A DNA stretch of 64,000 bases, from positions 62,001 through 126,000 of the forward strand of contig PUQB01000368.1 in the NCBI GenBank assembly GCA_003024785.1, read 5' to 3'. The translations under genes were made by a program, and so were the position numbers. Source of the stretch: Selaginella tamariscina (Eukaryota; Streptophyta; Lycopodiopsida; Selaginellales; Selaginellaceae). This document shows, piece by piece, positions 6,742 to 64,000 of the stretch (positions are counted from its first letter, which is position 1; each line of letters starts with the position of its first letter). A model generated the notes under the pieces. The model saw only the letters and a program-made list of their open reading frames with translations, had not been told where the DNA came from and did not search any database.

Positions 6742-8836
6742 ATGAGCAACACACTAGATGAACTAGCATCATGCATACAAGCATGCAACAAGTTATGCGA
6801 AGCAAGACAGATACACACCACAATTCTCAACCAAATACTCATCGCAGCAACATCTATCTATCCAATCTGATAATCCAAATGTACGGGAGGTGTGGCAGTG
6901 CAGAAGATGCATACTCCGTATTCACCAAACTACCTCAACCCAACACATTCTCTTGGAACATCTTGCTCCAGGCATATGCCCAACGGGGCATCTGCAACAA
7001 GCGCAAGAAACCTTCAAAGTTATGCCGCAAAGAACAACTGTTTCGTGGAATGCACTGATCAAAGCACTCATTCTGAATGGGGAGATCACCCAAGCTGAAT
7101 TTCTCTACAGAAAAATGCCAGAGAAGAGCCTGGTATCGATGAACACAATGATAACTGCATATGCCCAGAACGGGGACGCCGGAAAAGCAAAAGAAATCTT
7201 CGATACAATCCCAAGTCCGAACTTGGTATCCTGGAATGCACTCTTAAAAGCATTTACAGAGTCCCAAATGGTGCACGAAGTGAAACATATATTCGAGAAG
7301 ATCCCACAGAAGGATGTAATCTCATGGACTACCGCGCTTACAGCTTTTGCCAAGTGTGGGCATTTGCAAGAAGCTGAAGAACTCTTTCAGAGAATGCCGA
7401 TGAAGAACGTGGTCTCTTGGACAGCAATGCTACAGGTGTTTGTAGAAAACGGGGAGCTGCAGAAAGCAAGAGAAGTGTTTCAAGCAATGCCAGATCGAAA
7501 CACTGTATCTTACAACACCATGATCGCAGCTTGTTCGGGTTTTCACGACGAAGCCGAGAGATTGTTCGCTGAAATGCCTAGCCCAGACATCGTATCGTTC
7601 AACACAATGATACAGGCATATGCCCAGAACGGGGATATACAGAAAGCAAGAGAGTTCTTCAACAAAATGCCGCTCCACGACTATGTTTCATGTTCTTCCA
7701 TGATTATTGCATTAAGCGAGAGTGGACACCTTCAAGAAGCCGAGTATATGTTTCAATCGATCAAGTTTAAGAACCTGGTGATGTGGAATGCAATGCTTTC
7801 TGCATATGCCCATGAAGGGCATGTCGAACAAGTCACTAAACTCTTCAATGCGATTCCCCAGCACGATTCTGCTTCATGGGAGACTCTTTTCCAAGCATGC
7901 TCGTGGTTTAGCAAACTCGAAACATTAGAGGAAATCTTTTCAAGAATGCCAGAATTGAATTTAATAAGCTGGAACACCATGGCTTCCGTATACTCCCAAT
8001 ATGGAGATGTCAACAATGCCTTGCGTGTCTTGGAAATGGCGAGGAGAGAAACATTGTTTCATGGAACATACTCTTGAATGCATATACACTGAGGTGTGAA
8101 GTCACGCACGCAAGGGACGTGTTTGTTTCGATGCCGGAGTACGACAAAACCTCTCGGACTACCATGGTGAGTGCATATGCGAGAACGGGGCATTTAGAAG
8201 AAGCCCAAATGGTGTTTGACACAACGTACGAGAGAGACGAGGTGCTGTGCACGGTAATACTCAGTGCATATGCCCAGAAAGGGCATATCACACACGCAAA
8301 GAAGATGTATGATGAGTTGCCGGTTCACGATATTATTGTCGACTTCCGTGATGCTTGTTGATATGCCAGAATGGGCATATGCAAGAAGCGAAGCGTATGT
8401 TTGATGCCGTCCCTTATAAGGAGCCTTCTCTATGGAACTCAATGCTTGCTGGTACGCGCAAAGTGGTTGCTATTCGATCGCATGTAAACTCTTCATTGAA
8501 ATGTATGAACGGACGTGGTGTCGTGGAATACTGCAGTGGGAGCGTATGCTCAATACGGGATACACATTTGTTATCTCACATGATGGAGCTCGAAGGCTAC
8601 GAGCTGGACGAGATCACATTTACAACGATGCTCGTCTCGTGTAGCCGAGTAGGAGTTGTAGAAGAAGGCCTACATTGCTTTAGTTTAATGCAGTATGACC
8701 ACGGGATGGTGCCTATAAGGAGCATTACTATGCAATGGTTGATGTTTATGTGAGAGCTGGGCAACTGGAAAATGCAGAGGATCTAGTAAGGAATATGCCG
8801 TTCTTCCCTAACGATGCAGCGTGGGGGAGCTTGCTG
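6742..8836 (+). CDS. PPR protein with P/L/S-type repeats, frame broken in several places
   Basis: Predicted organellar RNA-binding pentatricopeptide repeat protein. The usual N-terminal lead-in (ELASCIQACNKLCEARQIH) starts at the ATG at 6742. About 18 repeats follow, many with the pattern 'VSWNTMI.AYAQNG....A...F..MP'. The longest unbroken run is 6890-8077. Translation shows frame breaks near 6842, 6985, 8040, 8365, 8440 and 8560, and one in-frame TGA near 8358. The last recognisable block (MVDVYVRAGQLENAEDLV...AWGSLLW) runs to about 8836, where a donor-like GTATGT follows; no E or DYW domain was found. The many breaks and the missing end suggest a pseudogene, but PHT1 next door has similar one-base breaks, so assembly error cannot be excluded. 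Confidence 0.85.
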
Positions 8837-21033: not shown

Positions 21034-21271
21034 ATAATGAATCGCTACCGGCTCCGATCGAACACGCTGGTGGTAGAGATTGGGATACGTGGAGAATGGG
21101 CGCTGTTCCTCCTGCAAACCCTACGCAAAACGGTCACATTTCTCCCAAGAACCCTAAATCTTTCCATTTCACATGCCCTAAAACAGAGACCGTACGTATG
21201 AATATACAGGTTGTGGGTTCAAATCCCACCATGCTCGAATTATTTTTACACACACACACCACCACACGCAC
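21034..21271. promoter_or_regulatory. Bidirectional spacer multi-UBL gene / PPR gene 2
   Basis: Holds telo-box-like motifs (AACCCTACG near 21117, AACCCTAAATC near 21150) and an 18-bp PPR-derived fragment at 21083-21100. A T-arm-like tRNA remnant lies at about 21206-21240. Confidence 0.55.
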
Positions 21272-23245
21272 ATGCATACTCGGACATATGTATACACAGG
21301 AGTGAGTGCAGGATACAGAGAGACGGCTCTTTCAAAGCTTGAACTGGTCGACGAGCTGAAGAAATGCGGCAACACAAAGGAATTGCAACGAGGGAAAATC
21401 TTACATTCGAATGCCATAGAAAGCGGCTGTCACAAGAACAGGTACGTTGCACACACGCTGATATCCATGTACAGCAAGTGTGGGAGCATGCAAGACGCTC
21501 GGGTCGTGTTTGAGAATACGCTCCAGCGTGATGTTGTCTCCTGGAATGTCTTATTACTTGGATACGTGGAGAATGGGGAGAGCTTGGTGGCCTTGGAAAT
21601 GTTCAACAGCATGGACTGTACACCCAACGGTGTTACGTTTCTTGCTGCTTTCAAGGCATTGGCAGCGCTGGCGAGTGCTGGCAAACTTGACAAGAAGGCC
21701 TGTCTACAAAAGGGACTGATCATTCATAGACACGCTAGAATGCGTGGCTTTGACAGAGACGTGCGTGTGGCGAGCACGTTGGTGGACATGTATGGGAAAT
21801 GTGGAAGCATGGTGCATGCTCGAGATGTTTTGGATGGGATTGCGCAGAAGAGCGTTGTTGCATGGACCGCTTTAATACTTGGATACGTGGAGAATGGGGA
21901 GAGTTTGATGGCCCTGGAGGTGTTCAACAGAATGGACTGTGCACCGAACCGCGTGACTTTCATGGCTGTACTCAAGGCATGTGCTAAGTTAGACAAGGAG
22001 GCGTGTCTGCGGAGAGGAGTAACTATTCATAGACAAGCCAGAGAACATGGCCTGGACAGAGACGTGGTCGTGGCAAGTGTCTTGGTGGAAATGTATAGCA
22101 AATGCGGGGCGATGCAACAGGCAAGGGATGTGTTCGATCGGATGCCTCACAGGGATGTCGTATGCTGGACTACCTTAATACTTGGATACGTGGAGAATGG
22201 AGAAAGTATGAAGGCTTTGGATATCTTCCACAGCATGGAGTGTGCACCAGACAGTGTTACATTTATCGGTGCACTCAAGGCGTGTGCAGGGCTGGATAAG
22301 GACTCTTGTTTACAAGCCGTTCATAGACAAGCCAAAGAGCGTGGCTTTGACAAAGACACACTCGTGGCAAACACATTGATAGACGTGTATAGTAAATGCG
22401 GGAGTATGGTAGAGGCGAGAGATGTTTTCGACGGGATGACACGCCCAAGTGTTGTGTCGTGGAATGTGTTGATATCTGGATACGTGGAGAATGGGGAGAC
22501 TTCCATGGCATTGGAGGTGTTCAACAGCATGGACTGTGTAGCAGACTGTGCTACTTTTGTTGCTGCACTCAGGGCTTGTGCTAGCTTAGGAGCAGTAGAA
22601 AACGGGCAGGGAATCCACTATCTGTTATGTAAGCTTGGATTTGAACAGGAGGAGATAGTGGCAAACTGTTTGGTGGACTTTTATGGGAAATGTGGTAACA
22701 TGAATGCAGCTGAAGAGGTGTTCAATCGTATTCGTTCCCGGGATTTAGTGTCTTGGAATGCTTTGATTGGGGGTTACAGTTTGCTCGGTGAGACAGCTCG
22801 TGTGTTCGGTTTGGTAAAAGGAATGCAGGATGCTCGTCTACAAGTGGACGTTGTTACGATGGTATCCATACTTACTGCGTGTAACCACGCGGGTACGGTG
22901 GAAGAAGGCGAGAGATGTTTCTATTCCATGTCGGAGTACGGTGTTACGGCGACTATGGAGCATTATACGTGCATGGTTGACATGTTGGGGAGGGCCAACA
23001 GGCTGCAGGAGGCACTCTCGCTTGTGAGGGGGATGCCATTTGAGGCCAACAGTCTGGTGTGGATGACTCTGTTAGGGGCATGTAAAAAATGGAGCAATGT
23101 GGAGGTAGGCGAGGTTGCTTTTCGTGCAGTGGTGACACACGACAGTAAGGAACACATAGCGGCGGCGCATGTTCTGATGCGAAACATATATGAGAGGTTA
23201 GGCATGCTACAAGACGAAGAGCATATAGAAAACGCTATGTTCTAA
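21272..23245 (+). CDS. PPR protein of the PLS class without E/DYW domain
   Basis: Intronless, uninterrupted 657-codon frame. It starts with the usual 'ELVDELKKCGNTKELQRGKILHSNAIESG' lead and carries about 14-16 pentatricopeptide repeats in PLS triplets, such as 'LISMYSKCGSMQDARVVFE', 'VVSWNVLLLGYVENGES' and 'NGVTFLAAFKA'. The end (MEHYTCMVDMLGRANRLQEA...LVWMTLLGACKKWSN) matches the E1-like region, but no DYW deaminase follows. Expected role is sequence-specific binding of plastid or mitochondrial RNA. The first residues (MHTRTYVYTG) have little transit-peptide character, so the true start may lie upstream in another exon. Successive repeats are unusually alike at DNA level: the word GGATACGTGGAGAATGG occurs four times. 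Confidence 0.95.
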   Translation: MHTRTYVYTGVSAGYRETALSKLELVDELKKCGNTKELQRGKILHSNAIESGCHKNRYVAHTLISMYSKCGSMQDARVVFENTLQRDVVSWNVLLLGYVENGESLVALEMFNSMDCTPNGVTFLAAFKALAALASAGKLDKKACLQKGLIIHRHARMRGFDRDVRVASTLVDMYGKCGSMVHARDVLDGIAQKSVVAWTALILGYVENGESLMALEVFNRMDCAPNRVTFMAVLKACAKLDKEACLRRGVTIHRQAREHGLDRDVVVASVLVEMYSKCGAMQQARDVFDRMPHRDVVCWTTLILGYVENGESMKALDIFHSMECAPDSVTFIGALKACAGLDKDSCLQAVHRQAKERGFDKDTLVANTLIDVYSKCGSMVEARDVFDGMTRPSVVSWNVLISGYVENGETSMALEVFNSMDCVADCATFVAALRACASLGAVENGQGIHYLLCKLGFEQEEIVANCLVDFYGKCGNMNAAEEVFNRIRSRDLVSWNALIGGYSLLGETARVFGLVKGMQDARLQVDVVTMVSILTACNHAGTVEEGERCFYSMSEYGVTATMEHYTCMVDMLGRANRLQEALSLVRGMPFEANSLVWMTLLGACKKWSNVEVGEVAFRAVVTHDSKEHIAAAHVLMRNIYERLGMLQDEEHIENAMF

Positions 23246-27739: not shown

Positions 27740-29562
27740 TTAAACACCCTCTTCATCTTCGGCATACATATTCGCAACGAGTATATAAACAGCAGCTTTC
27801 ATCTCATCAAGCTCACACAGCCTTTTTGCAGCTCGACTTGCTCGATCGAAGTCACCGTGCACCTTGGAAGCAGACAGAAGTGTCAACCACGCACTGCCCT
27901 CTGCTTCAAAAGGCATACTCTCCATCACTCCCTCGCCTCACCCAGATGATCAGCCCGTGCAAACATGTCGATTATGCAGCAGTAATGTTCAATGCCTGGT
28001 ACAAGGCCGTGATCAAGTACCATGGACTTAAAACACCTGATACCCGACCTTACATTCCCAGCATGACTGTATCCGCTAAGTATCAAAGCAAAAGTCACAG
28101 TATTCGGAGGCAAACCTTGGGAGTTCATCTCATGGTAAATCTCCTCTTGTTTCACACATGCACTAGTCTGAGAGAAGGCACCTATAACGTGGTTCCATGA
28201 CAATATGTTCCTCTGTGGCATCCTTTCAAACAGCCCCATCACATGGTTGAGATGCCCATTCTGGGCATATATCCCCACTAACGCATTGAACGACACCACA
28301 TTCCGGCTGGGTATATCCCCGAAGACTCTCATGGAGGCCTCGATATGCCCGTCTAGTGCATACGTCTGTGCCAGTGTGTTCCACGACACCACGTTCCTCT
28401 CCGGCATTCTCAAGAAGACTTGCTCGGCTCCCTGTAGATCCCCATTTTGGGCATACGCTGCAATGAGTGCATTCCAGGAGACTATGTCCCGCTTGCTCAT
28501 TACGTGGAACACTTCTTTCGCACTCTCTATGTCACCACTCTCACCGTACCCGGTTAGAACTGCATTGTATGACACAAGTGCTCCACTGTGACCAGTCCAG
28601 TCCACACACGTCTCCACTAGCTGTCTAGCTTCGTCCAGTTCTTGTTCAGTGCGAGTGCTACGATCATGTTGGTAAGAGAGAACATGTCCCAAGACGGCAT
28701 TCTATCGAATGTCTCCTTTGCATCATCTAGATACCCCACCTGAATACAAGCCTCCACGACAGCATTCCATGAAAGAACATCTCTATGAGGAAGTGCATCA
28801 AACAGCGACTTCGCCTTGGAGAGTCTTCCCTCGTCTGCAAATGCCTTGATCATTGCATTCCATGGGAAAGAGTCCCACTGGGGCATTCTGTGGAAGAGGT
28901 TCCAAGCGTCTTCCAGATGCCGGACCCGGCGTTTGCAGTGAGCATCGCTGTCCAGCTTATAGCGTCCCTATGGTGCATGCTCTCGAAGAGGGACTTCGTG
29001 TGCTCCAGCTGCCCGTCTTCTGCATACGCAACCACCATAGCCGTGCAACAAACAGCTTCCCAATTCGGCATTCTCTCTAGAAGCTCTCTCCCGTGCAACA
29101 GATGCCCATTCGAGCAAGTGCTTGAATCATGGCATTCCACGAGATATTGTCCCTCTGTGGCATTGTTTGGAACACAACCCATGCCTCGTTGAGACTCTCA
29201 GACTGAGCATATGCAGATAGCATCGAAGTCCAGGAAGCCACGTCTCTCTGCGGCATGGTGTGGAACAGGAGCTCCGCTTCCCGCAAATGCCCGTTCTGGG
29301 TATAAGCTACAGAGAGCAGATTCCAAGAATAGAGGTTCCTCACAGGCATTTGATTGAACACACAAGCTGCTGATACAACGTCCCTGCATTTCCCGTACAT
29401 GTGTATGAGGAGATTGAGAAGAACGGTCTTGTGGGAGTGAATTCCTGCAAGGATTTGGCCATGGATTTGCCTGCCTCTCTTGAGGTCCTTTGAGTTGGTA
29501 CATGACCGAACAAGCTCTGAGAGCTCCGCAGTGCCCAAGTTATTCTCCACCTGTGTGCACAA
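27740..29562 (-). CDS. PPR protein, third in window, frame broken by one-base gaps
   Basis: Minus-strand intronless PPR gene beginning MCTQVENNLGTAELSELV with the usual 'LKRGRQIHGQILAG' lead. It holds about 15 repeats such as 'MPVRNLYSWNLLSVAYTQNG' and 'MPERNVVSWNTLAQTYALDG'. It ends with the E1-like 'IEHYCCIIDMFARADHLGEA', 'MESMPFEAEGSAWLTLLSAS' and 'AVYILVANMYAEDEEGV'. The frame shifts near 29105, 28880, 28640 and 27928; the protein continues logically across each, giving about 600 residues. Predicted organellar RNA-binding factor. No DYW domain is visible. Confidence 0.92.
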
Positions 29563-29759
29563 GGCCTCCTTGCACCTCGTAACAGCATTCCATAGTTCTT
29601 TTCTGTATATTAATCACTTGTAATCATGATGTTAATAAGTGAGAATGTTTAAGACTTGTTTGAAACGGAGTAACTGGTTGCAAAGAGGTTTGAACCTCCT
29701 CTTAAACTGCAGTTTACCTCGTACATAGCTTGTAATGTTTATACTATCCATCAACATGG

Positions 29760-46181: not shown

Positions 46182-47065
46182 ACCTTAGAAGTAGTATCTA
46201 GCAGCACCAAAGGAATGTTCCCACGTCTGCACTCCATTCTCTGAAAGACGCTCAACACCTCTCTGGTCTTTCGAGGGCTTTCCTCAAGCTTTGCAGCTAA
46301 CCAAATACAGCTTGCAGCAACTCTCTGTCACATAAAACACCCATATTCAAAACCCAGGAAAGGAAAGCAACGTATTTCATTTTCTTTCCCCCGAAAAATG
46401 AATTTGATAAAATAGTTGATGTGGGCTGCTATACAATGCAGAATGATTTAATAGTCTATATGAGTTTACTGTCCATATAATGGTTTATTGTGCTAATACA
46501 GTATGGTGATGTAAATGATATAGAACCCAACTTCGATTGTCTATGCGTAGATTTACTCTTTATCTGTAACTGTAACGTGTACATGTACCCAACAGACATA
46601 TCATAAATATATCCCCATGATTCTCATTACATATATCATACACATACATGTATATAGATTCTCAGCGTATTCATATATATCATAAATCATGGTTATGAAT
46701 ATACAATCACACTACACTGATTCACATTCCGTATTCTATATTATCCTTAAAAATAAAATTTGATGAATCTATGCTAATGAGGGGGATTGCGATAGGACTC
46801 ACCTAGAATGGCGAGCAAAGAGGATACAAACCTTGACATTGAAGCGAGTGAAGGATTTTTTGCAGTAAAACCTGTGGAAGAAGACCTGGCCAGTCGCCAT
46901 AGCCGCCTGCGGCAATCTCAACAGGATGCCGCTCTCCTGGATCAATTCGCATCCATACAGCCGCAGCATTGTTTCCGTCTCCTCGCTTACCCCATCCTTC
47001 CTAGACGGCGACTCCCGCAGCTGCTCCTCACTCACGTAGAATGTGTCCAGCGCCGTGTAGATCAT
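44667..47065 (-). CDS. Cyclin L (RS-domain cyclin)
   Basis: CDK11-type cyclin in pre-mRNA splicing speckles. Six minus-strand exons: 46832-47065, 46184-46324, 45915-46084, 45307-45563, 45042-45144 and 44667-44866. The start MIYTALDTFYVSEEQLRESPSRKDGVSEETE and the box LQESGILLRLPQAAMATGQVFFHRFYCKKSF-type sequence are cyclin L. VAASCIWLAAKLEESPRKTREVL, YEEMKVDLIRTERHLLKEMGF and SEVVACGVVYAAARRF follow. The tail is a long alternating R/E/K/D region ending KDSRRDSS, replacing the usual RS repeats. A one-base gap in CCC near 45467 breaks the frame before PPWWLVF. Intron 3 carries a decayed copy of exon 4. The gene is head-to-head with FKBP62. Confidence 0.91.
45690..45752 (-). pseudogene. Decayed duplicate of a cyclin L exon
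   Basis: On the minus strand this piece encodes DNTFKSEVVLCGVVYTC, close to FKSEVVACGVVYAAA of the real exon at 45307-45563. It lies in the intron just upstream of that exon and is diverged, shortened and followed by no open extension. Confidence 0.75.
46110..46181. repeat. (GA)n microsatellite
   Basis: About 72 bp of GA repeats inside intron 2 of cyclin L. On the sense strand it reads (TC)n, directly after the donor. Confidence 0.95.
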
Positions 47066-51158: not shown

Positions 51159-52573
51159 TCAGCTGCAGCTGGGCCTTGAGCAGGAGCTCCAACCTGAGGA
51201 GCTTGTTGTTGTGCAGCCTCTTGTTACCACTCTAATGGCTTGCAGCTCTTGTTCAACATCTGTATCTCCCACATCCATCAGATAGTTGTGGAGAATACAA
51301 GCTGCAAAAACAAGCTCAGAGGCCAGCTTTGGAGACATCTTCATCTCTTGACGAAGAGCTCCAAACTTGTCTGTCACAAGAAACCATCTCAGAGACAACA
51401 AGGATAAGGAAAAAAATGACAAAACTTACTCTTCAATAGAGCAAACGAACACTCCACAAGGTCCCTCGCTGCTGAGAGCTCGTAGTTGAAGATCTCTGTC
51501 ATCCGATTCACGTTCTGCTGCACCCGGAAAGGTATCATGATCGCTGAGCAGCATGGATATCCCTTGTCCCGAGAAGGTATGGAGAAACATCGAAATGCTG
51601 ATCTGGGGGAAGTGGAGTCGTTTCACTGGTTCTTGGAGAACCTCTCCCCTCCTGTAACGCTCGTAAAACCCGCTGTTTTTCCATATCCGAGTGTCATGTA
51701 CAGATCCGGGCCAACCAATGTTGACGTCGAGAAACCTCTTCTTCGAGTCTACAATCGCTTGGAGGACGATGCTTGCATGCTTGTGCTTCATGTACGCTTC
51801 TCTGTTCTCGACTGGCCTGCTGATGTGAATATGAGAGCAGTCGATGCAGCCGAGGACGTTGGGAAGAGAGGTCCAGTCGGTGAAGCCTTCAATGACAACT
51901 TCAGCCTCAGCTATGGTTGTCGGGAACTTGATGTAGTCCCGAAGCTCTTCTTGGATTGCTTTGCATGTCTCCTTGATGATCCGAGCAGCAGAGCTCTCAC
52001 CGATGCCAAACTCCTCAGACAAGTTCAGGTACTTGAAGTTGTTCCTTAGCTTGAAGATGGTACAAGCGAGCCTCAACTTCACTGGAATAGCCATGCGGTA
52101 GTTTGTATCATGTTTGACGAGTCGGAGATGCAATCGAGCTGCCAAGTTGTTGAAGGTTTGTTTGTCCATTCCGAAGAGCTTCAACCATCGAGAGTCGTCG
52201 TACATCTCCACCACAAACCGGTCAAACCACACAGTTGAGCGGGGCTTGACCCACCATTGGAGATCAGACTGAAGTCTCCAGTCCGGAAAACACAGTGAAC
52301 AATCAACTGGAACAGAAAGCTTCGCTCGAAATCCTCAGCGGCATCTGCTTCTTCTTCATCCCTCTTCCTCTTGAGAAAACGTTGATGAGCTTTCTTCAAC
52401 CTCTGAGCAGACCTTCTTCGAGCTTGTTGCACTGTGATCTGGTGAAGATGAAGTAAAACTTGCCTGAAAACAAGGAGCAAAGTGATCCATTCGCTACTTG
52501 GGTTTCCTGAAAAAAAAAATAGAACTTTACTGATGAGAAACATGTGAAAGAACATAAAGGAAACTTCATGCAA
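51159..52573 (-). CDS. Harbinger transposase (HARBI1-like DDE nuclease)
   Basis: DDE_Tnp_4 nuclease that cuts and joins the element. An N-terminal helix-rich region (QRLKKAHQRFLKRKRDEEEAD) precedes VWFDRFVVEMYDDSRWLKLFGMDKQTFNNLA. The catalytic core has NVLGCIDCSHIHI (first Asp), VHDTRIW (second Asp) and, after a short intron (about 51376-51429), LVECSFALLK...WFLV and ACILHNYL with the third acidic region near NYELSAARDLVE. Frame breaks near 52250, 51600 and 51530 are one-base; with them repaired the protein has about 430 residues. The first exon likely begins upstream of 52573. Confidence 0.9.
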
Positions 52574-52680: not shown

Positions 52681-53549
52681 TCAACACAAGCTTCCAAACT
52701 TACTCAAGATCCAGGAGGTTGCTGCTGCTTGGCGTAGGAGTTGACAAAGGTAGCAAAGTTCATATTCATTGCTAGCTGCTTCCCGCTCTGCTTGGAGACG
52801 TTCCCTCTCAATCTCAGCCATCTCCCGCATGAACTCCTGCTCGACTTTGAGGCTCTCAGCATGCCTCTGAGCACGATTCTCTTCGACTTCCTTTGTCAAG
52901 TTGGCGAACGTCTTCATTGCCTCACCAACATCAGAGCGACGAGTCCGTTTCTTGAGCCGGCCAGAGGAGCCGGACTCACGGTCCCCCGGAACAGTCTCGG
53001 TGCTCTCATCATTGACAAGACCACTAGCTGCTCCTTGCTCCTTGCTTCCACCTCCTTGTTTGGTCCCAGTATCTCCCTGCTTGTTCTGCAGCTGCTTGGA
53101 GGTGTCAAAAAGGTTTGGAGGTGAGATGTTTGGCTTGCCATGCAGAATCTCCTCCAGTTCGTCATATAGTTCATGCTCCATTGTTGCTGTAGCTTGGCGA
53201 TGGAGCGTTCCTTGGAGGTCATCCCAAAGTAATCTGCTGCCCCGGTTGCAGCATTGTTATCACGGATTTTTTTGAAGGCCGAGACCATGTTGTCCCACTT
53301 CACCCTGATATTCTCATGGCCGACTATACCCTGCAGCAGCCATCTTCTCACCGATCTTCTGAAACCTTTGTGTCTTTGAGATGGCCTTGTTCCTGTCCTT
53401 CCTACTTGTGTAATCCTCTTCCTCCTCCTTTTTCAACTGTACCAGCAAGAAGATCTCCTCCCTGCTCCAATTAGGCTGCCGATTGTGCTTTTCTACTAAA
53501 GAAACATGTGTATCATGCAGTCCATGCAGTCCATGCTCACTGGATCCAT
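52681..53549 (-). CDS. Harbinger ORF2: Myb/SANT-like DNA-binding protein
   Basis: Partner protein that carries Harbinger transposase to its ends. The N-terminal trihelix-like domain reads NRQPNWSREEIFLLVQLKKEEEEDYTSRKD...FQKIGEKM, then GHENIRVKWDNMVSAFKKIRDNN. A middle region is low complexity (GDTGTKQGGGSKEQGAASG) and holds RLKKRTRRSDVGEAMKTF. A C-terminal coiled coil (EENRAQRHAESLKVEQEFMREMAEIERERLQAEREA) follows. Frame breaks near 53520, 53340 and 53170 are one-base. Start was set at the ATG at 53549 (MDPVSMD), though the next frame may be the coding one there. Confidence 0.82.
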
Positions 53550-54461: not shown

Positions 54462-56564
54462 TTTACAAAATTTTACTTCATCATATGTTATATATATTTC
54501 TTCTATAAGCTATACGTTAACAATCTAATACATTATATTTATCAATTTATATACTCTAATACTTATTATTTTCTATACACCTAGTTATTAAATTATAATT
54601 TCTAATTCTGCCAAATATATTTCTTAGTTATATAAAATTGTAAGAGATATAAATTAGTAACTTATATACTAAAATATTAAATATTCTGTATGAATATTTT
54701 AATGCTAACTTGTTTTATAAAAATTGTTTTGTACATGTTGTGAACAAGCTACCAGCGAAATAAAAACCTTTTCCATTCCCTTCAATTTTTATATAATGAT
54801 ACCATACATATGTATATTGTAGTTTAAACATAATGTTTTGTTTGTATTTATAATCAAATAATCCAGGAATTCCTCTTATCTTTCCTATATAATATTTTGA
54901 GGTTATCACCTTGGTGAAAATGCTAATTATTTTTACAAAAGAGTTTCTTCTTTTTTATTACATTTTCTATTTTATTTTATTTTTCTTACTTCTTGTGGTG
55001 TGGTTGTTATGAAATAACTTTTAAAATAATTATTGTGTCACACTTCATAACTAACAATTGATTCAATGTTTGTAAGTTATCAACCACCATCCTTAGTTGG
55101 GTGTCAAGTCCAAGTTGTTATAAAACATGACCTACAAAATCGTCTTCAAAGAGTAAGGCATAACATATTAAGTTGAAGACATAACCTATAAAATCATATC
55201 GAAGAGTAAGTCATGACATACTAAGTTTGCTACACTTAGACATGGCAGTACCACTTTGCATCAAGAAAAAAAAAATTTGATACAAAATTACATAACAATT
55301 TTATTTCACGTTTACTTCAAATTTTGAAGTTATGAAAATGCATTGTTTAATTTTTAATTTTTTCAAAATTTAATTTAAATTCTACTTGAAGAGCCATCAT
55401 GTGTTAAAATGCGACAAGAGCAGAAACTAACCCAAATTGTAAATAAAAAATGTATACAAATCAAAAAGAATTTGAAATGTTATTTTAGAAATATTTTTAG
55501 AATTGTGGAAGTCTATCAATAATATGAAGTAAATTCAATTTAGTAATCAATAATTCTTATTTAATTGATGTAATAGATCTTATGTATTTAATGAATAACT
55601 ATTATGTTTTATGATAACATTTATTGATCAATAGTCTGTTGTGAATCGTTTAAATTATTTAATGCCTAAGAATTGAAAGAACGGCGTGTCAATTGAATAA
55701 TAACTTTGAAAAGTAAAACATTCCCTTTTGAATGTGGTGTTGTGTCTAAATTAAAGATTAATTTAGAACATGATTTATATCATTAAAAAATCATGGGGTC
55801 TAAATTAATTATTTCAAACCAATTTATATAGTGACATTTATAATTTCATCTTATAACCACATTTTCATTAATTTGAGACTTTATATGAATATTGACATTT
55901 TATTAATTATTTAATGAGGGATTTAATTAGCAATCTACTAGCAATTTGTTAATATAACTATTTAGTTAGTTGTTTTAGGTTAAATTTATAATACGAAACT
56001 AGTTTTTAATTAATCAACTACAAACCAATGGAAATTTATTATCATAGTTTAACTAATTTTTCATGATTTAATTATTTAAAAAATATTATTAATATTTATT
56101 AAGTATTATTTAAAATTTTATTAATAAAACTAAGACTGTAGAAAATGTTAAATGAAAATGTTTTATATTCTTTAATTTTATGAATCTTTTAATTTATATA
56201 TATATTATAAAATTATGGTTTATTATTTATGATAACTCAAATTGTCAATTCTTAGTTCTAACCTTAACAATATCTAGTATTACTTTAAATGCACGTTGTA
56301 ACTAAAGTGGGCATGATACGTGAAAATGGGAATATAAAATAAATTACTAATTAATACTTAAGTTTAATTATTAATTAATCATTTAATTAATATGTAATTA
56401 AGCCTTAAATATTAATTAATTAATTAATTAATCCTTCAATAACCTTACTTAGTAAGGAATATTCCTAAAATATATTCATATTATTCTAAAAATAGTTTAC
56501 AATAATGAAGAAATACTATTAAACATAATTACAAATGAAATCATTTCTTATCACATATAATTTT
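53801..56564. other. AT-rich gene desert
   Basis: Very AT-rich, with (AT)n tracts at about 54225-54257 and 54419-54456 and TTAATTAAT clusters near 56407-56430. No credible gene was seen on either strand. Confidence 0.65.
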
Positions 56565-57690
56565 TTATAAATACTTTCTTTCTATCATACAAATAAATCT
56601 TTTCATTTTGTTTAAATCATCACTCTCCGGATTAATCAAATCATTTTGGTCAATATCTTGATGTTGTTGCCACCACTTAACACTCTCACGAATGCAATTG
56701 GAGTTGCCATCCTTGTTAATACATAAGATGTGATAAGAGAAGGTCTGCATAAAGGCTCATCTAAAAACTGACGTTCCTTAAGAATAATATTATAAAAGCG
56801 CCCGGTTGCTATCCTTCATTTTATAAAATTCAATATCACAGAAAGAAAAGCTTTAGGAAATGTATGAAGAACGGTGGTGGATACTGCTCACAAAAATTTT
56901 CGAGATTCTTCTTTCTGAGGCACGTATCCAAGTAGTTCACTAGCTCATCCATGATATCGGTATCAGAATATGGATCGAAAGTGATTGGATGAATACAAGC
57001 AATGTTTTGGTTGAGCATAGCCTTCTGAGGAGAGTCGTCTACTACTAAGATATGTGCATTCTTCGTTATCCTTAAGCGACTGATCTCCCCATGAGTCCCA
57101 ATTATTCTTTCATTCTTGAAGAAGTATGGCTTGCTTTCCTTTCTTATATTGTGAAATTCGAGAGGTTTATACACATTCGCTGGTCAAAAATCCAATCTTT
57201 ACGAATCACCTCTTCTGCAACACTACAATGTTTCTTAAGTAAACTCAACAGCGGTGTTAAGTTATGAATCTGCATGCATGACCAAATCCCCACAAGCGCA
57301 CCCATCTCCTTAAGCTTTTGAAAGAGACGATCCAACCCTGGACGAAAAATAATATCATATCGAAATTTACCATGACAAGGAATGAAATCTCCTTGTTTGA
57401 TTTCTGTTTTTCTATCCGGGCCTTTGTCGATGAAGCAGAACACCATTGACATCCAACAACACAATATGGCCATGAGTAACATGAGATAGCGTTGCCTCTT
57501 GAATACTTTGCAAATCACTTGTTTGCTCCCTTTCACATTTATCCGTTGCCACTATTCGTTGCCTATCCCTTCATCATTTAATTGTACATCATCCTTACAA
57601 GATTCAGATATTGCATGCGCTGAAGAAATTGATTTCGGAACTGAAGCCAATAAAAATGATGATGAAAAACTGAAGTGGCCCCCATGGTAA
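56565..57690 (-). CDS. FCP1/NIF-type phosphatase-like (HAD superfamily) protein
   Basis: Minus-strand frames fit an NLI-interacting-factor/FCP1 phosphatase domain. The catalytic loop is readable as IVLLDVNGVLLHRQRP near 57420-57470 (family DxDx(T/V), here DVNGV, so the second Asp is Asn). A middle part KFRYDIIFRPGLDRLFQKLKEMGALVGIWSCM and the last motif HILVVDDSPQKAMLNQNIACIHPITFDPYSDTDIMDELVNYL (57030-57090 and below) follow. The Asn for Asp change may reduce activity, though plant NLI-type paralogs with LDxNG are common. Exon borders are not resolved: frames shift near 57450 and 57160. A basic region at 57500-57690 could be the N-terminus, with one stop. Conserved motifs make the family likely; intactness is uncertain. 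Confidence 0.65.
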
Positions 57691-58011
57691 CGATGTTTTG
57701 AGCTGCATTATTATCCATTTCCTGCATGAACTCTGTCATTCTGACATGTGGCACAAGAAATTGTCGCCAAACCCCTCTCTTACCTCATGGCAATGCTGAA
57801 AATCCATGTTCTCAATTATTTCATTACATCTGCAAAATGATAATTAGCTGACCTTAAAATTATCAAGGTATATTATTTACCTTGTTAATGTGTGACCCAT
57901 GTTTGAACTAAAAGCTTCATTAATCCTTGAGAATTTATTTTCTGTACAAATATAAAAGAAATATACAAAAATGCCTTATGTTACACTCATTTACAACTAT
58001 TCATCACTCTA

Positions 58012-60980
58012 TCAATTCATTATCAATTCTTCTTCTTCGCTATTACCTTCTGAGTGAGGCGAAGAAGGTCTAAGCCGCTTGTGAGATGGTTCAAGATCTT
58101 CTGCATCTTCTATTGATGTTTCCATGGGTCCTGGAGTGTGCGAATGTTCTGTACTCCTCGAGATAACTTCCGGTCTAATATCTGATTGAAGTTCGTTCTC
58201 AGACTCCGAGATTGAACCAGATTCACCTTCAGAGCTATCGCACTTATCTGGAGGGAACTTTCTCAAATACGCCTTTATGGATTCGTTGGGGTACTCAGTT
58301 GAGACCCAATCTATCCACTTGTTCAGGTCCTCAACCATGGTCTTATCCTTTCAACGGCAAACACACATGTATGCCGAAGGTAACACTCCTTCAAGACGGA
58401 CCCCCTAGTGCAGTAGTCAAAAACCCACGCATCACTGTGAGGACCCCTGATCAAGTTGACGATGCTCCGTGCCGCTTGACTTGTAATGTTTGGATAACGT
58501 ACATTGCCGAATACGTCACTCATACCTATCGGTGTATCGGATGGAGGTTCAGGGCCGTTGGAGTGCAAACAGATGCCTGGCCAGTCATTTGGAAGCTTGA
58601 AATTGTTTGGCGCATTCCTAACAACCAAGTGAACAACGTATCAATGCACTTGGGATTAGCATCGTTCATATAAAATCCTGTCCAACGATGTCTATTCTTC
58701 TTGGCGAAGGCGAAGGCAAAAGTATCGGTGACATGAGCAAGAATCAAGAAATAAATACCTGAAAAAGTAGGTATCAGTGAAGAGCGCAAGCATGAATTCA
58801 ATAATAAATACCTTCTATGTATATGCTTGCACGGCTAAGTTTCTCCACCAGATCCTCTAGTGCCCTATCTGTCGAAAGATTTTTTGACACCCGCCGATCC
58901 ATCACGAACAATTGAAACGGTTTCCTACAAGCAGTGATGTTACCCCATAAAGTCTCCGAATCTAACAACAAACATCTGTAGGGCTTGTCGTGATTCGTAG
59001 CATCCTCCTTTATAAGGTTCAATTCGGTTCTCCGCTGCTGAAGGACTGCCATAAGAGAAGGCGTCATCCCAATGTTCTCCTTTTTGGCGTTGGCGTGCAA
59101 TAGATTCTTGCCTAGATCTTCCGATTGGTTCACCCATTCGACAAGCATATCATCGTTCGTCACATGCAAATATTTGCTACCTCTTCATATGTTGAAGTCG
59201 AGGTCCAACCCAGTTTGTGGCAGTGTATTCCCAACCACTCCTTGAAATGCCTGACCGTCTTCAACTCCATTGCCTTGAGATGAAAAGGAGAGGTTGGGCT
59301 GCTGTTATTAATTTGTAGTTTGCCATCGATCACCAAATCAGCCAAGACTTCCATCTCCTCCATCGTTGTTCCATTTAAAGGCTTCAACCATGTGAGCTTG
59401 AAATCGTTGTCTACATCCTTTGTAGATTGAACAGACTTAGCCTTCGGCGTCTTACTGGGTTTCTTTGCAGACTTTTCTGAGGGCTCCCCTTCACTTGTCT
59501 GCTTCTTCTTCAGTGTTCCTTTTGAAAAGGATTCCATAATCCCCAACCATTTGGCAAAGATCCTATCTTCGGGGCAAGAAATCAACATCATCAGAAAGAT
59601 GTTTCCTTCCCGCCCACCTGGGCAAAATCAACTGCTGCAATTTCTTCAACTCTCTGAGGAAAAAGACAGATTAATATACCGGCGAGATAAATCCCGCCCA
59701 AACAATTTGCTTACCCGGTATTCCGCAGATTGTGTATTCCCTGCGGTAGCTCTTTGTGGTCGCTGAAGAGATTCCCACACGGCTCGCGTGTGTTTAAACT
59801 TCTCCCATATTTTGCTGTTGTAGTGGTTGGTGTCGGCAGCGTCCCATTCCGCCGATAACTTATGGTACTGCTCGATTGTGAGATTCGGCTTAGCTAAAAA
59901 CGCCGATCTTTTTGTCAGCTTCTCACGGGTATGCTCGGAAAGTTTTGTTGCCATCGTTCCTTTGTTGTGTTCATCGAGAAGTCGTTGGGCTGCCGTTATT
60001 GTGTGCTGGCCACTAATGATGTAGTACTTGATAGATCTTTTATTCTCCGTCTGAATCTTCATGAGTTGTTCTGGTGTTGTGATCCAGACTTTGTCAGCAC
60101 CCTTCCTTCTTTCATAGTATGGACACAAAACAGCATTATGTGGAACGGTATAAGAATTGTCGTCCTTCATCTTCTCCATGAGCTCAGCTACACGTTCCTG
60201 GTTGAGTGGCCTGTAATTGAAGTTTGGGTTGACGCTGCAATATTTAACCCTACAAGGATAAATCTTATCATCCAACATCATTTCCTTGTGACTTATTGCA
60301 GCATGAGATGCCACAGGTGCAGCTGACAAAACGATTGATGATTTTCTTTTGCGATCCGAATCAACATGTGTGATCCCCGACTGCAGCTGTTCTAGTGTTC
60401 TCGGCACACTCTCCAGCTCCCGAAGCTTCCTAAGCAAATTGAACGTGATCTGTAGAGAACCTGAGACCGAGCCACCTCTCAATCTCCCTTATGATGTCGC
60501 TGTGTTCTTCTTCAATGTGAAGAGGGAAGATTGCTCCACTTGCTGATTTTCTGTATTGTGAAGCAATATCTCCTGACAATACACCTACTCGATGAGTCTG
60601 AAGATCTTCGAAGTAGACATCCAGATGGATCCCCTCCATAGATGGGCTTTCGTTGAGTTGAAGAAGAACTCCAAGGTCAACATCATTAGTGAACACGTGA
60701 ACGTTGCTTGTCCATGAGATGTGACAGAGGTTAATTTGACAGCACCATGGTTGCTCCAATGCGCTTCCATTTATCTTAAAATGGCCAAGTTGATTCCAGA
60801 ATCCCCCTGCCCATCTCTTCTCCTGCTCTTGTCTTTAATGTCACTTCAATTCCACATCTGAATACAAAAATGATTAGTTCAGTATCCGAGTATAACAGAT
60901 TTTTTTAATTTTACCCAGAATTTGACGACGACCGGGTAATGAAGGTTCGGAGGCTAATCCGCCGCCCTCTCGTAAATCAG
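58012..60980 (-). CDS. Large protein with ParB/Srx-like and DNA-methyltransferase-like regions
   Basis: One minus-strand protein of about 900 residues can be followed through several exons and one-base gaps, ending at 58012. Its upstream part (60430-60857; a further exon ends at about 60915) has no recognised domain. Next (59646-60482) is a ParB/sulfiredoxin-like segment: RPLNQERVAELMEKMKDDN...YYIISGQHTITAAQRLL, resembling the 'R.L....V..L..SI' and 'GxHR..A' motifs of ParB. A basic linker (KKKQTSEGEPSEKSAKKPSK) and a helical region follow. The last third has HVTDTFAFAFAKKNRHRW..., then VRYPNITSQAARSIVNLIR and DAWVFDYCTRGSVLKECYL...CVFAVE, which resembles the KP..L...LI and LDPFxGSGT motifs of N4/N6 DNA methylases but with a degenerate motif I. 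The tail is acidic (SSEGESGSISESENE). Domain calls are inference by motif. Confidence 0.55.
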
Positions 60981-61028
60981 CGCTCACACATATATATTGG
61001 CTGCGGCATTTTGAATAGGGATGGGTGG

Positions 61029-61482
61029 GGCGGGATTAATCCCGCCGCTTATATCCTGCGGAAGTGCCTGAGCGGCGGGATTAATCCCGCCGCCTCCGCG
61101 AAGGGCATGAGCGTGGGGCCGGATTAATCCCGCCGTTCATGTCCTGCGTGAATTCCTGGGCGGCGGATTAATCCCGCCGCTCTACGACAAAACCGAAAGC
61201 GGCGGGATTAATCCCGCCGCCCATGGCCTGCGTGAGGGGCCTCGGCGGCCGGATTAATCCCGCCGCCCATCCCCTGTAAATGCCCTGCGCGGAATCCGGC
61301 GGGATTAATCCCGCCCATTAGAACCTACACAGGCCATTGCCGCGAGAATAAATCCCGCCGCATTCCGCGCAGGGCATGGGTGAGCGGCGGGATTAATCCC
61401 ACCGCCGAGGCCCAACCATATAGCGGCGGGATTAATCCCGCCGCCGAGGCTTATAACCTATAGCGGCGGGATTAATCCCGCC
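61029..61482. repeat. Array of eleven 18-bp palindromes, about 44-bp period
   Basis: The perfect form GGCGGGATTAATCCCGCC is its own reverse complement, centred on ATTAAT. Copies start near 61029, 61074, 61117, 61162, 61201, 61247, 61298, 61342, 61386, 61425 and 61465. Six are perfect and five carry one to three changes. Spacers of 21-33 bp are themselves related, sharing CCTGCG(T/C)G and GGGCATG words in both orientations. The array is an island of GC-rich DNA in AT-rich surroundings, directly before the 5' end of the ParB/methyltransferase-like gene. Confidence 0.95.
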
Positions 61483-61499
61483 GCTCGAGGGGCTTAGCG

Positions 61500-62206
61500 A
61501 GATAAAAACACACACAATATATATGTGTGTGTGTATATATATATATATATGTATGTATGTATGTATGCATAGGAGTGTATGTGTGTGTGCAAGAGATAGA
61601 TAAATAAATAAAATTATACAGTACTGGTACACCTAATATATGTGTGACATAGGTATATATATGTGTTGTATATGTATATCGTGTGTATGCGTGTGAGCGA
61701 AACAAATAAAATCATACAGATAAACAAACACACACACACACATATATATACACAGGAGTGTGCGTGTGTGTGCGAAAGATAAAACTAATAAATAAATAAA
61801 ATTATACAGATAACACACACATATATATGTGTGTATATAGATATATAATCTATAGAGAAAGAGAAGAGTCTGTGAATATATAAGCATATATATAAACTAG
61901 TGTTGTATGTATGTATATATGTATATAGGTATATATATATGGTATATGTATATTGTGTGTATGCGTGTGTGAGCGAAACAAATAAAATCATACAGATAAA
62001 CAAACACACACACACACACACATATACATACACAGGAGTGTGCGTGTGTGTGCGAGAGATAAAACTAATAAATAATAAAATTATACAGATAAACACACAC
62101 ATATATATGTGTGTATATAGATATATAACCCATATGAATATATAAGCAATATATATAAACTAGTGTTGTATACTATTTGTTAATATGCATTGATTATATA
62201 TATATA

Positions 62207-62243
<37 letters not shown>

Positions 62244-62314
62244 TGTAAAGCAGTGCGCGTGTGTGTGGGAGAGATAGATCAATAAAAAAAATTTACAGAT
62301 ACTGGTACAACATA

Positions 62315-62373
<59 letters not shown>

Positions 62374-62418
62374 AGATAAAACTAATAAATAAATTTATAC
62401 GCACACTCCTATACATAT

Positions 62419-62451
<33 letters not shown>

Positions 62452-62460
62452 GATCTCACC
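61500..62460. repeat. Microsatellite-based higher-order tandem repeats
   Basis: A block of about 275 bp containing GAGCGAAACAAATAAAATCA, CAGGAGTGTGCGTGTGTGTG and ATATAGATATATAA words occurs at about 61679-61850 and again at about 61955-62125. Partial copies lie at about 61580-61650 and 62260-62330 (TACTGGTAC...ATAATATAT). (TG)n tracts lie at 62210-62242 and 62335-62368. Confidence 0.85.
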
Positions 62461-63029
62461 TGTGTGCACAGCCGCCGCCGCCGATTTCACAGCCGCCGCC
62501 TCTTGAACCTAAGAATATACCTAAACCCTAAAGGAATTAAATATATATAAACCCTAAAGAATATTCCTTCTGAGAATATACTTAAACCTTAAAAAGAATA
62601 AAATATAGATTCGCCCTAAACGAATATTCTTTCATTTATATATAGCGCGTGCGTGTGCGTGGGTGTATCACATACACCTCAAAAATATAAATCATGCAGG
62701 GATTTAACATGTGTGTGTCCATGAGAGTGTTAAAGTTTCATGTGTATCAATACATACATACACATTGCATATATTAATACACATAATATATACATACACA
62801 CGTGTATACACACAGACATACACACATATTAGTAACATAATATTAGAGAGACCGAGTACATATTATAATCATGCATGGTGTATGTTGAGAAGAGAGACAG
62901 TACATATTAACATAGACATGCATGGTGTGTATGTATGAGAGAAGACAGAAAGTACACATATATACATGCACACGTGTATACACACAGACATACATACATA
63001 TTACATGAGTAAATTCATTGTGTTACATA
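62461..63029. other. Intergenic sequence with CTAAACCCT words
   Basis: CCGCCGCCG tracts at 62470-62500 are followed by repeated AAACCCTAAAG/GAATATTC motifs to about 62640. No gene is supported; this may be degenerate telomere-like sequence. Confidence 0.5.
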
Positions 63030-63058
63030 TTAGGGTTTAGGGTTTAGGGTTTAGGGTT
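63030..63058 (+). repeat. Interstitial telomere repeat (TTTAGGG)4
   Basis: About four perfect TTTAGGG units, the plant-type telomere repeat. A single further TTTAGGG unit lies near 63196. Sequence continues for at least 940 bp beyond, so this is not an actual chromosome end in this assembly. Confidence 0.95.
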
Positions 63059-63309
63059 GCTCCCAACAAGCTTAATATAAATATTACACATGTAAATTCA
63101 ATGTGTTACATACAGTCACACAGATTGAGTACATATATCATACATGCGTTGAACATGATGTTTTCAATAAAGAAGCAACCTATTTCTTCAGTTTGGTTTA
63201 GGGTTGTGCATGTGTGTGCATATGTGTTTTTGTAAGTTCTTGTAATGCGTGTGTAAATTTATGATTGTGTTTATATATGTGTGCAAAACAAACATCGAAT
63301 AATTAAGAA

Positions 63310-64000
63310 AATAATATTAATAAACACACTAGGAACATATTTTAAATTATACATAATAATATATGATTTTATCTAATATATAGCCATATATAGTTTTAAT
63401 AATATATATTAATTTAATATTGATAAAAAGGTTTAACATTGAAATATTCTTGAAATAATAAGAAATTAATTGAGAAAATCCCATTAATATATACAAATGT
63501 AAATTAAGTACTCAAATAATTAACTAAATTAATTATCATAATCATGTTTAATATTGGAATATTCTTGGAATAATAAGAAAATAATAAAGAATATCCCATT
63601 AATATAAAGAAGATTAATTACTCAAGTAATTAAGGAAAATATTAATATATATTATTAAAACTATATATGACTATATATTAGATAAAATGATGTATTATTA
63701 TGTATAATTTAAATATGTTCATAGTGTGTATTAATTTAATATTGATAATAAGGTTTAACACATGAATATTCTTGAAATAATAACAAATTAATTGAGAAAA
63801 TCCCATTAATATATACAAATGTAGAATAATTACTGCAAAATTAAGAACAAGACTAATTTAATTATGATAATCAGGTTTAATATTAGAATATTCTTCAAAT
63901 ATTAATAAAATATTAAAGAATATCCCATTGATACTAGGAAATGAAAACTAAATACTCGAGTAATTAAGAAAATAATAATAAAAACAGACTATGAATATAT
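63310..64000. repeat. AT-rich direct and inverted repeats
   Basis: Two direct copies (about 63413-63500 and 63730-63830) share GAAATAATAA, AATTAATTGAGAAAATCCCA and ATATACAAATGTA. Related shorter copies around AATATCCCATT(A/G)ATA lie near 63590 and 63925. The segment about 63327-63412 (TTTAAATTATACATAATAAT) is inverted at about 63641-63735 (ATTATTATGTATAATTTAAA). It may be a satellite fragment or a decayed element. Confidence 0.8.

Follow-up and report, generated by a model that had tools for sequence, protein, structure and literature searches.

Among the described systems closest to the locus analysed here, a ParB-like gene beside an array of 18-bp palindromes in a 64,000-bp stretch of Selaginella tamariscina DNA (the window), the first is Sola1-1_Ec32, a Sola1 element 21.5 kb in length from the brown alga Ectocarpus. 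According to the main text of its report, Sola1-1_Ec32 encodes, on the strand opposite the transposase, a 1104-residue protein with ParB-like and DNA methyltransferase domains, and ParB-methylase-like accessory proteins of algal transposons are proposed there to bind the element that encodes them and to mark it (PMC12477816). The second is the VANC protein of Arabidopsis VANDAL elements: in the passages of the two reports drawn on here, VANC proteins bind to noncoding arrays of short motifs, leading to methylation loss (PMC5735166, PMC10398659), and the targets include tandem-repeat arrays upstream of VANA21 as well as intronic ones in VANC21 and VANB21 (PMC5735166). For the ParB-CTPase fold as a whole, the part of a survey used here gives sulfiredoxin as the eukaryotic example and places N6_N4 methyltransferase fusions in phages (PMC12704722).

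We find that the gene and the palindrome array of the window are components of a multicopy terminal-inverted-repeat (TIR) DNA transposon. Like Sola1-1_Ec32, as its main text describes it, this is a large DNA transposon with an accessory gene on the strand opposite the inferred transposase gene. ParB plus methyltransferase genes of transposons are already known, and the palindrome arrays are the new part. The novelty that a preliminary description of this DNA had claimed is therefore forestalled for the gene by the accessory genes of algal transposons, to the extent that the main text of PMC12477816 describes them, and stands for the arrays. Among the top-ranked results from the limited open-access literature searched, none described a land-plant element of such a kind or linked palindrome arrays to genes like these.

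The gene and the array belong to a transposon

The window corresponds to C691:62001-126000 in an assembly of 300.7 Mb and 1391 contigs. Copy-to-copy comparison reveals a multicopy family with sharp ends common to its copies, which range from 12.7 to 15.4 kb (12,718 bp for the window copy and 15,382 bp for a copy on contig C2). The left TIR, ATGCAAGTTGTAACTAAAATGGGCATG, and the right TIR, ATGCACGTTGTAACTAAAGTGGGCATG, are alike at 25 of 27 positions, some copies differing by one or two bases. The window copy occupies 56289..64000, with its ParB-like gene read on the minus strand, and runs on beyond the window to about 69006. Its right TIR lies at 56289..56315 and its left TIR at C691:131006 (equivalent to window coordinate 69006), and TTAA is present on both flanks, one copy of the 4-bp target-site duplication at 56285..56288 and the other beyond the window. 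Sola1 elements have target-site duplications of 4 bp. In the present family a 4-bp duplication surrounds three of the five two-ended copies (TTAA, ACAT and ATAT, the last for one reading of the end); the copy flanked by ACAT contains an internal run of N.

The order of parts along the element is TIR, DUF7869 gene, array B, an AT/GT-rich middle, array A, ParB-like gene, NIF-type phosphatase gene and TIR, with the ParB-like and DUF7869 genes in divergent orientation. The middle between the arrays measures 3-4 kb and is rich in microsatellites in the general anatomy of the element; in the window copy its microsatellite-rich, low-complexity sequence covers 61486..64000 and continues to about 64651, followed beyond the window end by the second palindrome array at 64652-65239 and then by the DUF7869 gene. 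Of the origins that the preliminary description had entertained, a mobile element is borne out and a single domesticated gene is not, the ParB-like gene being an accessory gene of the transposon. The middle also contains four plant telomere repeats (TTTAGGG, 63030-63058) and an inverted repeat of 73 bp with 96% complementarity (63341-63413 and 63641-63713, 227 bp between them). More left-end pieces, matched over 1.0-1.4 kb, are found near the full C2 copy at C2:161000-187900 (stretches L171, L161 and L172), so that the family seems to be clustered.

Palindrome arrays lie 5' of two element genes

Array A (61029..61482), upstream of the ParB-like gene, holds 11 palindrome sites spaced 39-51 bp apart (mean 43.6, standard deviation 3.5). 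Six of these sites are perfect copies of the 18-bp palindrome GGCGGGATTAATCCCGCC, three have one mismatch and one has three, and the eleventh (about 61342-61359) departs from it by more than four mismatches in an ungapped comparison. An array of eleven sites, as first reported, is thus present, with perfection limited to 6/11. The gene had also been placed directly downstream of the array, which agrees with our finding of a minus-strand gene with the array on its 5' side. Apart from the six perfect copies, no perfect 18-bp palindrome of the window is GC-rich, those otherwise listed being AT-rich or of CA/TG type. An additional degenerate palindrome can be seen by eye near 60943-60965; neither it nor the intronic copy described below figured in the preliminary description. 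A protein-coding role of array A is ruled out by spacings that are not multiples of 3. Helical phasing showed no clear period among the five tried (highest R 0.54, at 10.7).

Across the 300.7-Mb genome, the palindrome occurs with at most one mismatch at 46,888 places and its reversed-pattern control at none, which makes chance an implausible source. From seven contig pieces we sampled 15 arrays, each with five sites or more, smaller clusters being left out; the sample consists of the first-listed matches on C1 and C2 plus those on C691 and is not random, and C2:121589 and C2:125460-125654 were left out. With adjacency defined as a match to the N-terminal part of the gene starting at most 1.5 kb away, six arrays immediately precede the ParB-like gene at its 5' end and eight the DUF7869 gene, which accounts for 14 of the 15. 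The refuting condition set in the preliminary description gives a mixed outcome: the palindrome is very common in the genome, but these 14 arrays do adjoin one of the two genes. Gene and array belong together, as had been supposed. If up to four mismatches are allowed, the 15 arrays contain 269 sites at a median spacing of 45 bp, of which 117 are perfect and 80 have one mismatch. Three further stretches comprise one with 18 sites in two clusters (L184) and two without sites.

The ratio of observed to expected CpG is 1.0-1.2 in five array stretches, which are thus not depleted. Other parts of the C2 copy are depleted, with ratios of 0.41 for the DUF7869 part, 0.68 for the middle, 0.73 for the ParB-like gene and 0.79 for the phosphatase region. 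Where a palindrome carries two mismatches or fewer, the transition rate is 0.024 per site-position at CpG and 0.038 at other C/G positions, and so is not raised at CpG. Arrays without CpG decay are what would be expected if they were hypomethylated.

The exact palindrome also occurs in 49 prokaryotic stretches, several of them in one genome (a Prevotellaceae bin, an Anaerolineaceae bin), and in one stretch of a viral contig; we take these matches, as a guess, to be hairpins or hairpin terminators.

The ParB-like gene and its two halves

The ParB-like accessory gene is a multi-exon gene on the minus strand, at approximately 60856..58015. Two introns can be read by eye in the window copy, at 59654-59714 and about 58757-58809, and the reading frame is broken by about six frame changes, which possibly reflect decay or assembly indels. 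Longer open frames are retained in sister copies (478 and 273 residues in the C2 copy, 304 residues in a copy on C1), no sampled copy has the gene fully open, and exons joined from two copies give a protein of 968 residues. Codon-usage scoring was too weak for placing the frames, with 4 of 9 segments in the top 5% of the null distribution. The first of the two introns (59654..59714, minus strand) is 61 bp long, reads GT...CAG and is found in all six copies in which that region of the gene is present. Inside it, at 59681..59698, lies a palindrome with two mismatches that is identical in 6/6 copies with the intron.

Profile alignment places an approximate ParB-like domain at 59950..60280 on the minus strand, with a box-I-like stretch reading RPLNQERVAELMEKM and box II reading YYIISGQHTITAAQRLL, the latter being the GQH segment on which the first identification had relied. 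Global hhalign, with a long insert allowed, brings both boxes into register with a 24-domain ParB profile, and in local hhalign against a mixed ParB profile the segment scores 25.0, a value reached by 0/100 shuffles (maximum 18.0). Judged from these alignments, the similarity to ParB appears weak yet above chance. The protein has no match to PF02195 at E up to 10, and Pfam detects no helix-turn-helix (HTH) or dimerisation domain in it. The GQH segment of the original proposal is thus present, with a similarity to ParB that is weak. Some added weight comes to this weak ParB signal from the agreement of the gene with the description of Sola1-1_Ec32 in place, orientation and rough size.

The methylase-like C-terminal region fared worse. 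Delimited by eye, it extends over approximately 58347..58960 on the minus strand (QLFVMDRR ... VFDYCTRGS); it has no profile support, including no match to PF01555. The catalytic motif [DNS]PP[YFW] (DPPY/W) is absent from the place chosen by eye, which reads VMDRRVS in 7/7 copies, and the by-eye place of motif I reads [DY]YC[TS]RGS, not DxFxGxG, again in 7/7. If this half is of methyltransferase descent, it is very likely inactive, to judge by these residues. Methylation of its own array, which had also been put forward, is unlikely, since the region lacks both profile support and a catalytic motif at the by-eye place. A match of the region to designed dTor proteins was set aside, 0 stretches passing on their own.

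For phage ParB-N6_N4 methylase fusions, a tblastn search of 50,697 phage records found nothing with E of 10 or less, and a profile of 57 such fusion proteins did not match the product of the ParB-like gene; the 120 listed of 7997 matches to a phage ParB-methylase query were all near the query and were not used for profiles. In the protein database no homologue was found at E 0.01 (6993 candidates), and none for the ParB part at E 1 (593 candidates), in a search that requires shared 5-residue words and is thus weak evidence of absence. Four stretches of viral contigs fit a pattern, none being a relative, and the PDB sequences gave nothing usable for the ParB-like gene. The 53 matches listed by Rfam over 57500-62600 were all under the gathering score.

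The DUF7869 and phosphatase genes

In a profile search of a sister copy (L165), the product of the left-end gene matches DUF7869 (PF25273) in two open reading frames (ORFs), with E values of 1e-26 and 1e-10. The start of this gene faces array B. Its product is probably the transposase of the element. The open-access literature search found no paper on DUF7869. In the sister copy the gene spans L165:4306-7463 (C1:320305-323462) as three ORFs, and its C-terminal half includes LQMDNCAGENKN and FLMVGHTHEDID, which by eye resemble acidic catalytic motifs.

Downstream of the ParB-like gene, and followed by the right TIR, lies a gene for a NIF-type (NLI interacting factor-like) phosphatase at 56836..57536 on the minus strand, with a frame change in the window copy. 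This window gene matches PF03031 with E values of 7.3e-4 and 0.045, both below the cut-off; a longer ORF in the L171 copy gives a NIF match above it (E 1.5e-7).

A proposed function of the arrays

The account to which we lean, with no great margin of confidence, is that of a TIR transposon with a DUF7869 transposase in which a protein of the element, most likely the ParB-like one, sits on the arrays, thereby controlling promoters and protecting against silencing marks. The palindromes are predicted to be binding sites for this protein. The ParB-like protein would dock at the head of both genes, on their arrays, and at the palindrome within the intron of its own gene, and docking would bring both promoters under control and keep them clear of silencing marks, much as VANC does for VANDAL elements. 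The methylase-like half would probably be a dead or structural remnant that does not methylate. That the predicted sites may coordinate expression of the element is suggested by the palindrome arrays before two divergent genes together with the intron site.

A more elaborate form of this account, which we hold to be rather unlikely, casts the ParB-like protein as a ParB-type clamp directed against host silencing. The clamp would load on the parS-like arrays and the intron site, spread along the element, and block or remove cytosine methylation; the methylase half, no longer catalytic, would have a reading or structural role, and RNA polymerase II at the promoters of the element might be a target of the phosphatase.

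Several observations weigh against the docking of a ParB-like protein, or against parts of the account built on it. Concerning the protein, hhalign assigns the ParB segment a probability of 16.8%; against the profile of phage ParB-methylase fusions the segment was aligned at the wrong place (E 0.16); and its ParB score in HMMER is reached by 13/2000 shuffles of the segment and by 116/2000 of the whole composite. No ParB or methylase match came from Pfam, NCBIfam or PADLOC and no relevant one from PHROGs, and the methylase profile score is reached by 421/2000 shuffles. Concerning the element, an exact target-site duplication is absent in two of the five two-ended copies, and one of the 15 arrays lies beside neither gene. 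The 14 adjacent arrays are one conserved layout and not independent events, since the copies are relatives, and inheritance alone may explain the intronic palindrome. The low CpG decay in the arrays could also be explained by selection on the motif or by recent amplification, and transversions show a rate of 0.025 at CpG as against 0.008 at the remaining C/G positions, an excess at CpG that decay does not predict.

Other readings of the arrays

The arrays might instead be docking sites for the DUF7869 protein, used for transposition or for self-repression, with the ParB-like protein doing something else. Subterminal repeats serve as transposase docking sites in Spm/En, the arrays here belong to the element in the sampled copies, and the distance from an array to the nearest DUF7869 match, at the start of the coding sequence, is 155-174 bp in 8/8 cases (to the nearest match of the ParB-like gene it is 747-751 bp in five cases and 288 bp in the window copy). 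However, the arrays are not subterminal, their distances to the element ends being about 3.8 kb and about 5 kb, one of them heads the ParB-like gene, and a palindrome is found in the intron of that same gene; we regard this reading as improbable.

In a similarly doubtful, and in our view somewhat poorer, explanation the arrays would be enhancers to which a host transcription factor is recruited, each palindrome combining two inverted E2F-like half-sites (ATCCCGCC) with two overlapping WUS/WOX-like TTAATCC sites. The promoter-proximal position before both divergent genes fits such enhancers, as does the conservation of cores and not of spacers. Against this, 46,888 sites would titrate a host factor, and half-sites would suffice for its binding, yet the full 18-bp palindrome is common, perfect sites and sites with one mismatch making up the 117 and 80 of 269 given above.

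The arrays could also be a palindromic minisatellite that expands by itself, homogenised by slippage and conversion and bound by no protein. Their length does vary among copies, from 10 to 28 sites, and the spacers contain tandem and inverted duplications; the majority consensus of the array A units is partly palindromic past the 18 bp because spacer pieces are present in both orientations. Under such a process core and spacer should diverge equally, whereas in array A the 18-bp core is 94% conserved and the spacers are 45% conserved (n = 11 units, ungapped columns). The position 5' of two unrelated genes, constant in 14/15 arrays, also speaks against a minisatellite, which we consider very unlikely.

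To the domesticated nuclear ParB-methylase of the preliminary description, binding or methylating its own array, we give practically no credence: the GQH segment is present and the adjacency of gene and array is real, but the gene sits in a multicopy transposon with TIRs, which refutes a single domesticated gene, and at the by-eye places D-R-R and [DY]-Y-C-[TS]-R-G-S replace DPPY/W and DxFxGxG in 7/7 copies.

Neighbouring sequences in the window

Next to the element, ORFs at 51426-52334 and 52681-53432 on the minus strand, lying in AT-rich flanks, resemble by eye a PIF/Harbinger-type DDE transposase and a Myb/MADF-like partner. This PIF/Harbinger-like ORF pair is probably a second, unrelated DNA transposon adjoining the ParB-like element. 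ORFs that are PPR-like by eye are located at 6767-8361, 21182-23245 and 27925-29613, some of them with frame changes that are perhaps residual assembly indels. Read by eye, these ORFs and the TTTAGGG repeats mark the DNA as that of a land plant.

Comparison with known systems

Compared with the bacterial ParB-parS system, the locus has in common a ParB-like segment adjoining clustered palindromes; unlike it, the setting is a eukaryotic transposon, and the HTH and dimerisation domains are those that Pfam does not see here. The palindrome also differs from the parS consensus. With the phage ParB-N6_N4 methylase fusions the gene would share the domain order, as the preliminary description proposed.

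The resemblance to Sola1-1_Ec32 extends, in a comparison by description and as far as the main text of PMC12477816 goes, to a similar protein size (1104 residues there, 968 here) and to the combination of ParB-like and methylase-like regions. It differs in that the present element resides in a plant genome, has a methylase region that is unsupported and without a catalytic motif, and has a NIF phosphatase gene added. It differs further in its palindrome arrays before two genes, the string 'palindrom' being absent from that main text. The algal proposal, in the passages of PMC12477816 drawn on here, names no target, whereas in the S. tamariscina genome a single candidate target is present in tens of thousands of copies. 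This candidate is placed before two element genes, which makes the algal bind-and-mark proposal directly testable.

With the VANC/VANDAL system, as the passages used here portray it, the likeness lies in a multi-gene element having noncoding motif arrays that are upstream and intronic and that expand and contract. The motif of the present element is an 18-bp palindrome, unlike that of VANC, and its intron holds a single site, not an array. In architecture the two are much alike, with parts that differ. If the proposed function of the arrays is true, this transposon would add to VANDAL/VANC another anti-silencing system that makes use of arrays of sites.

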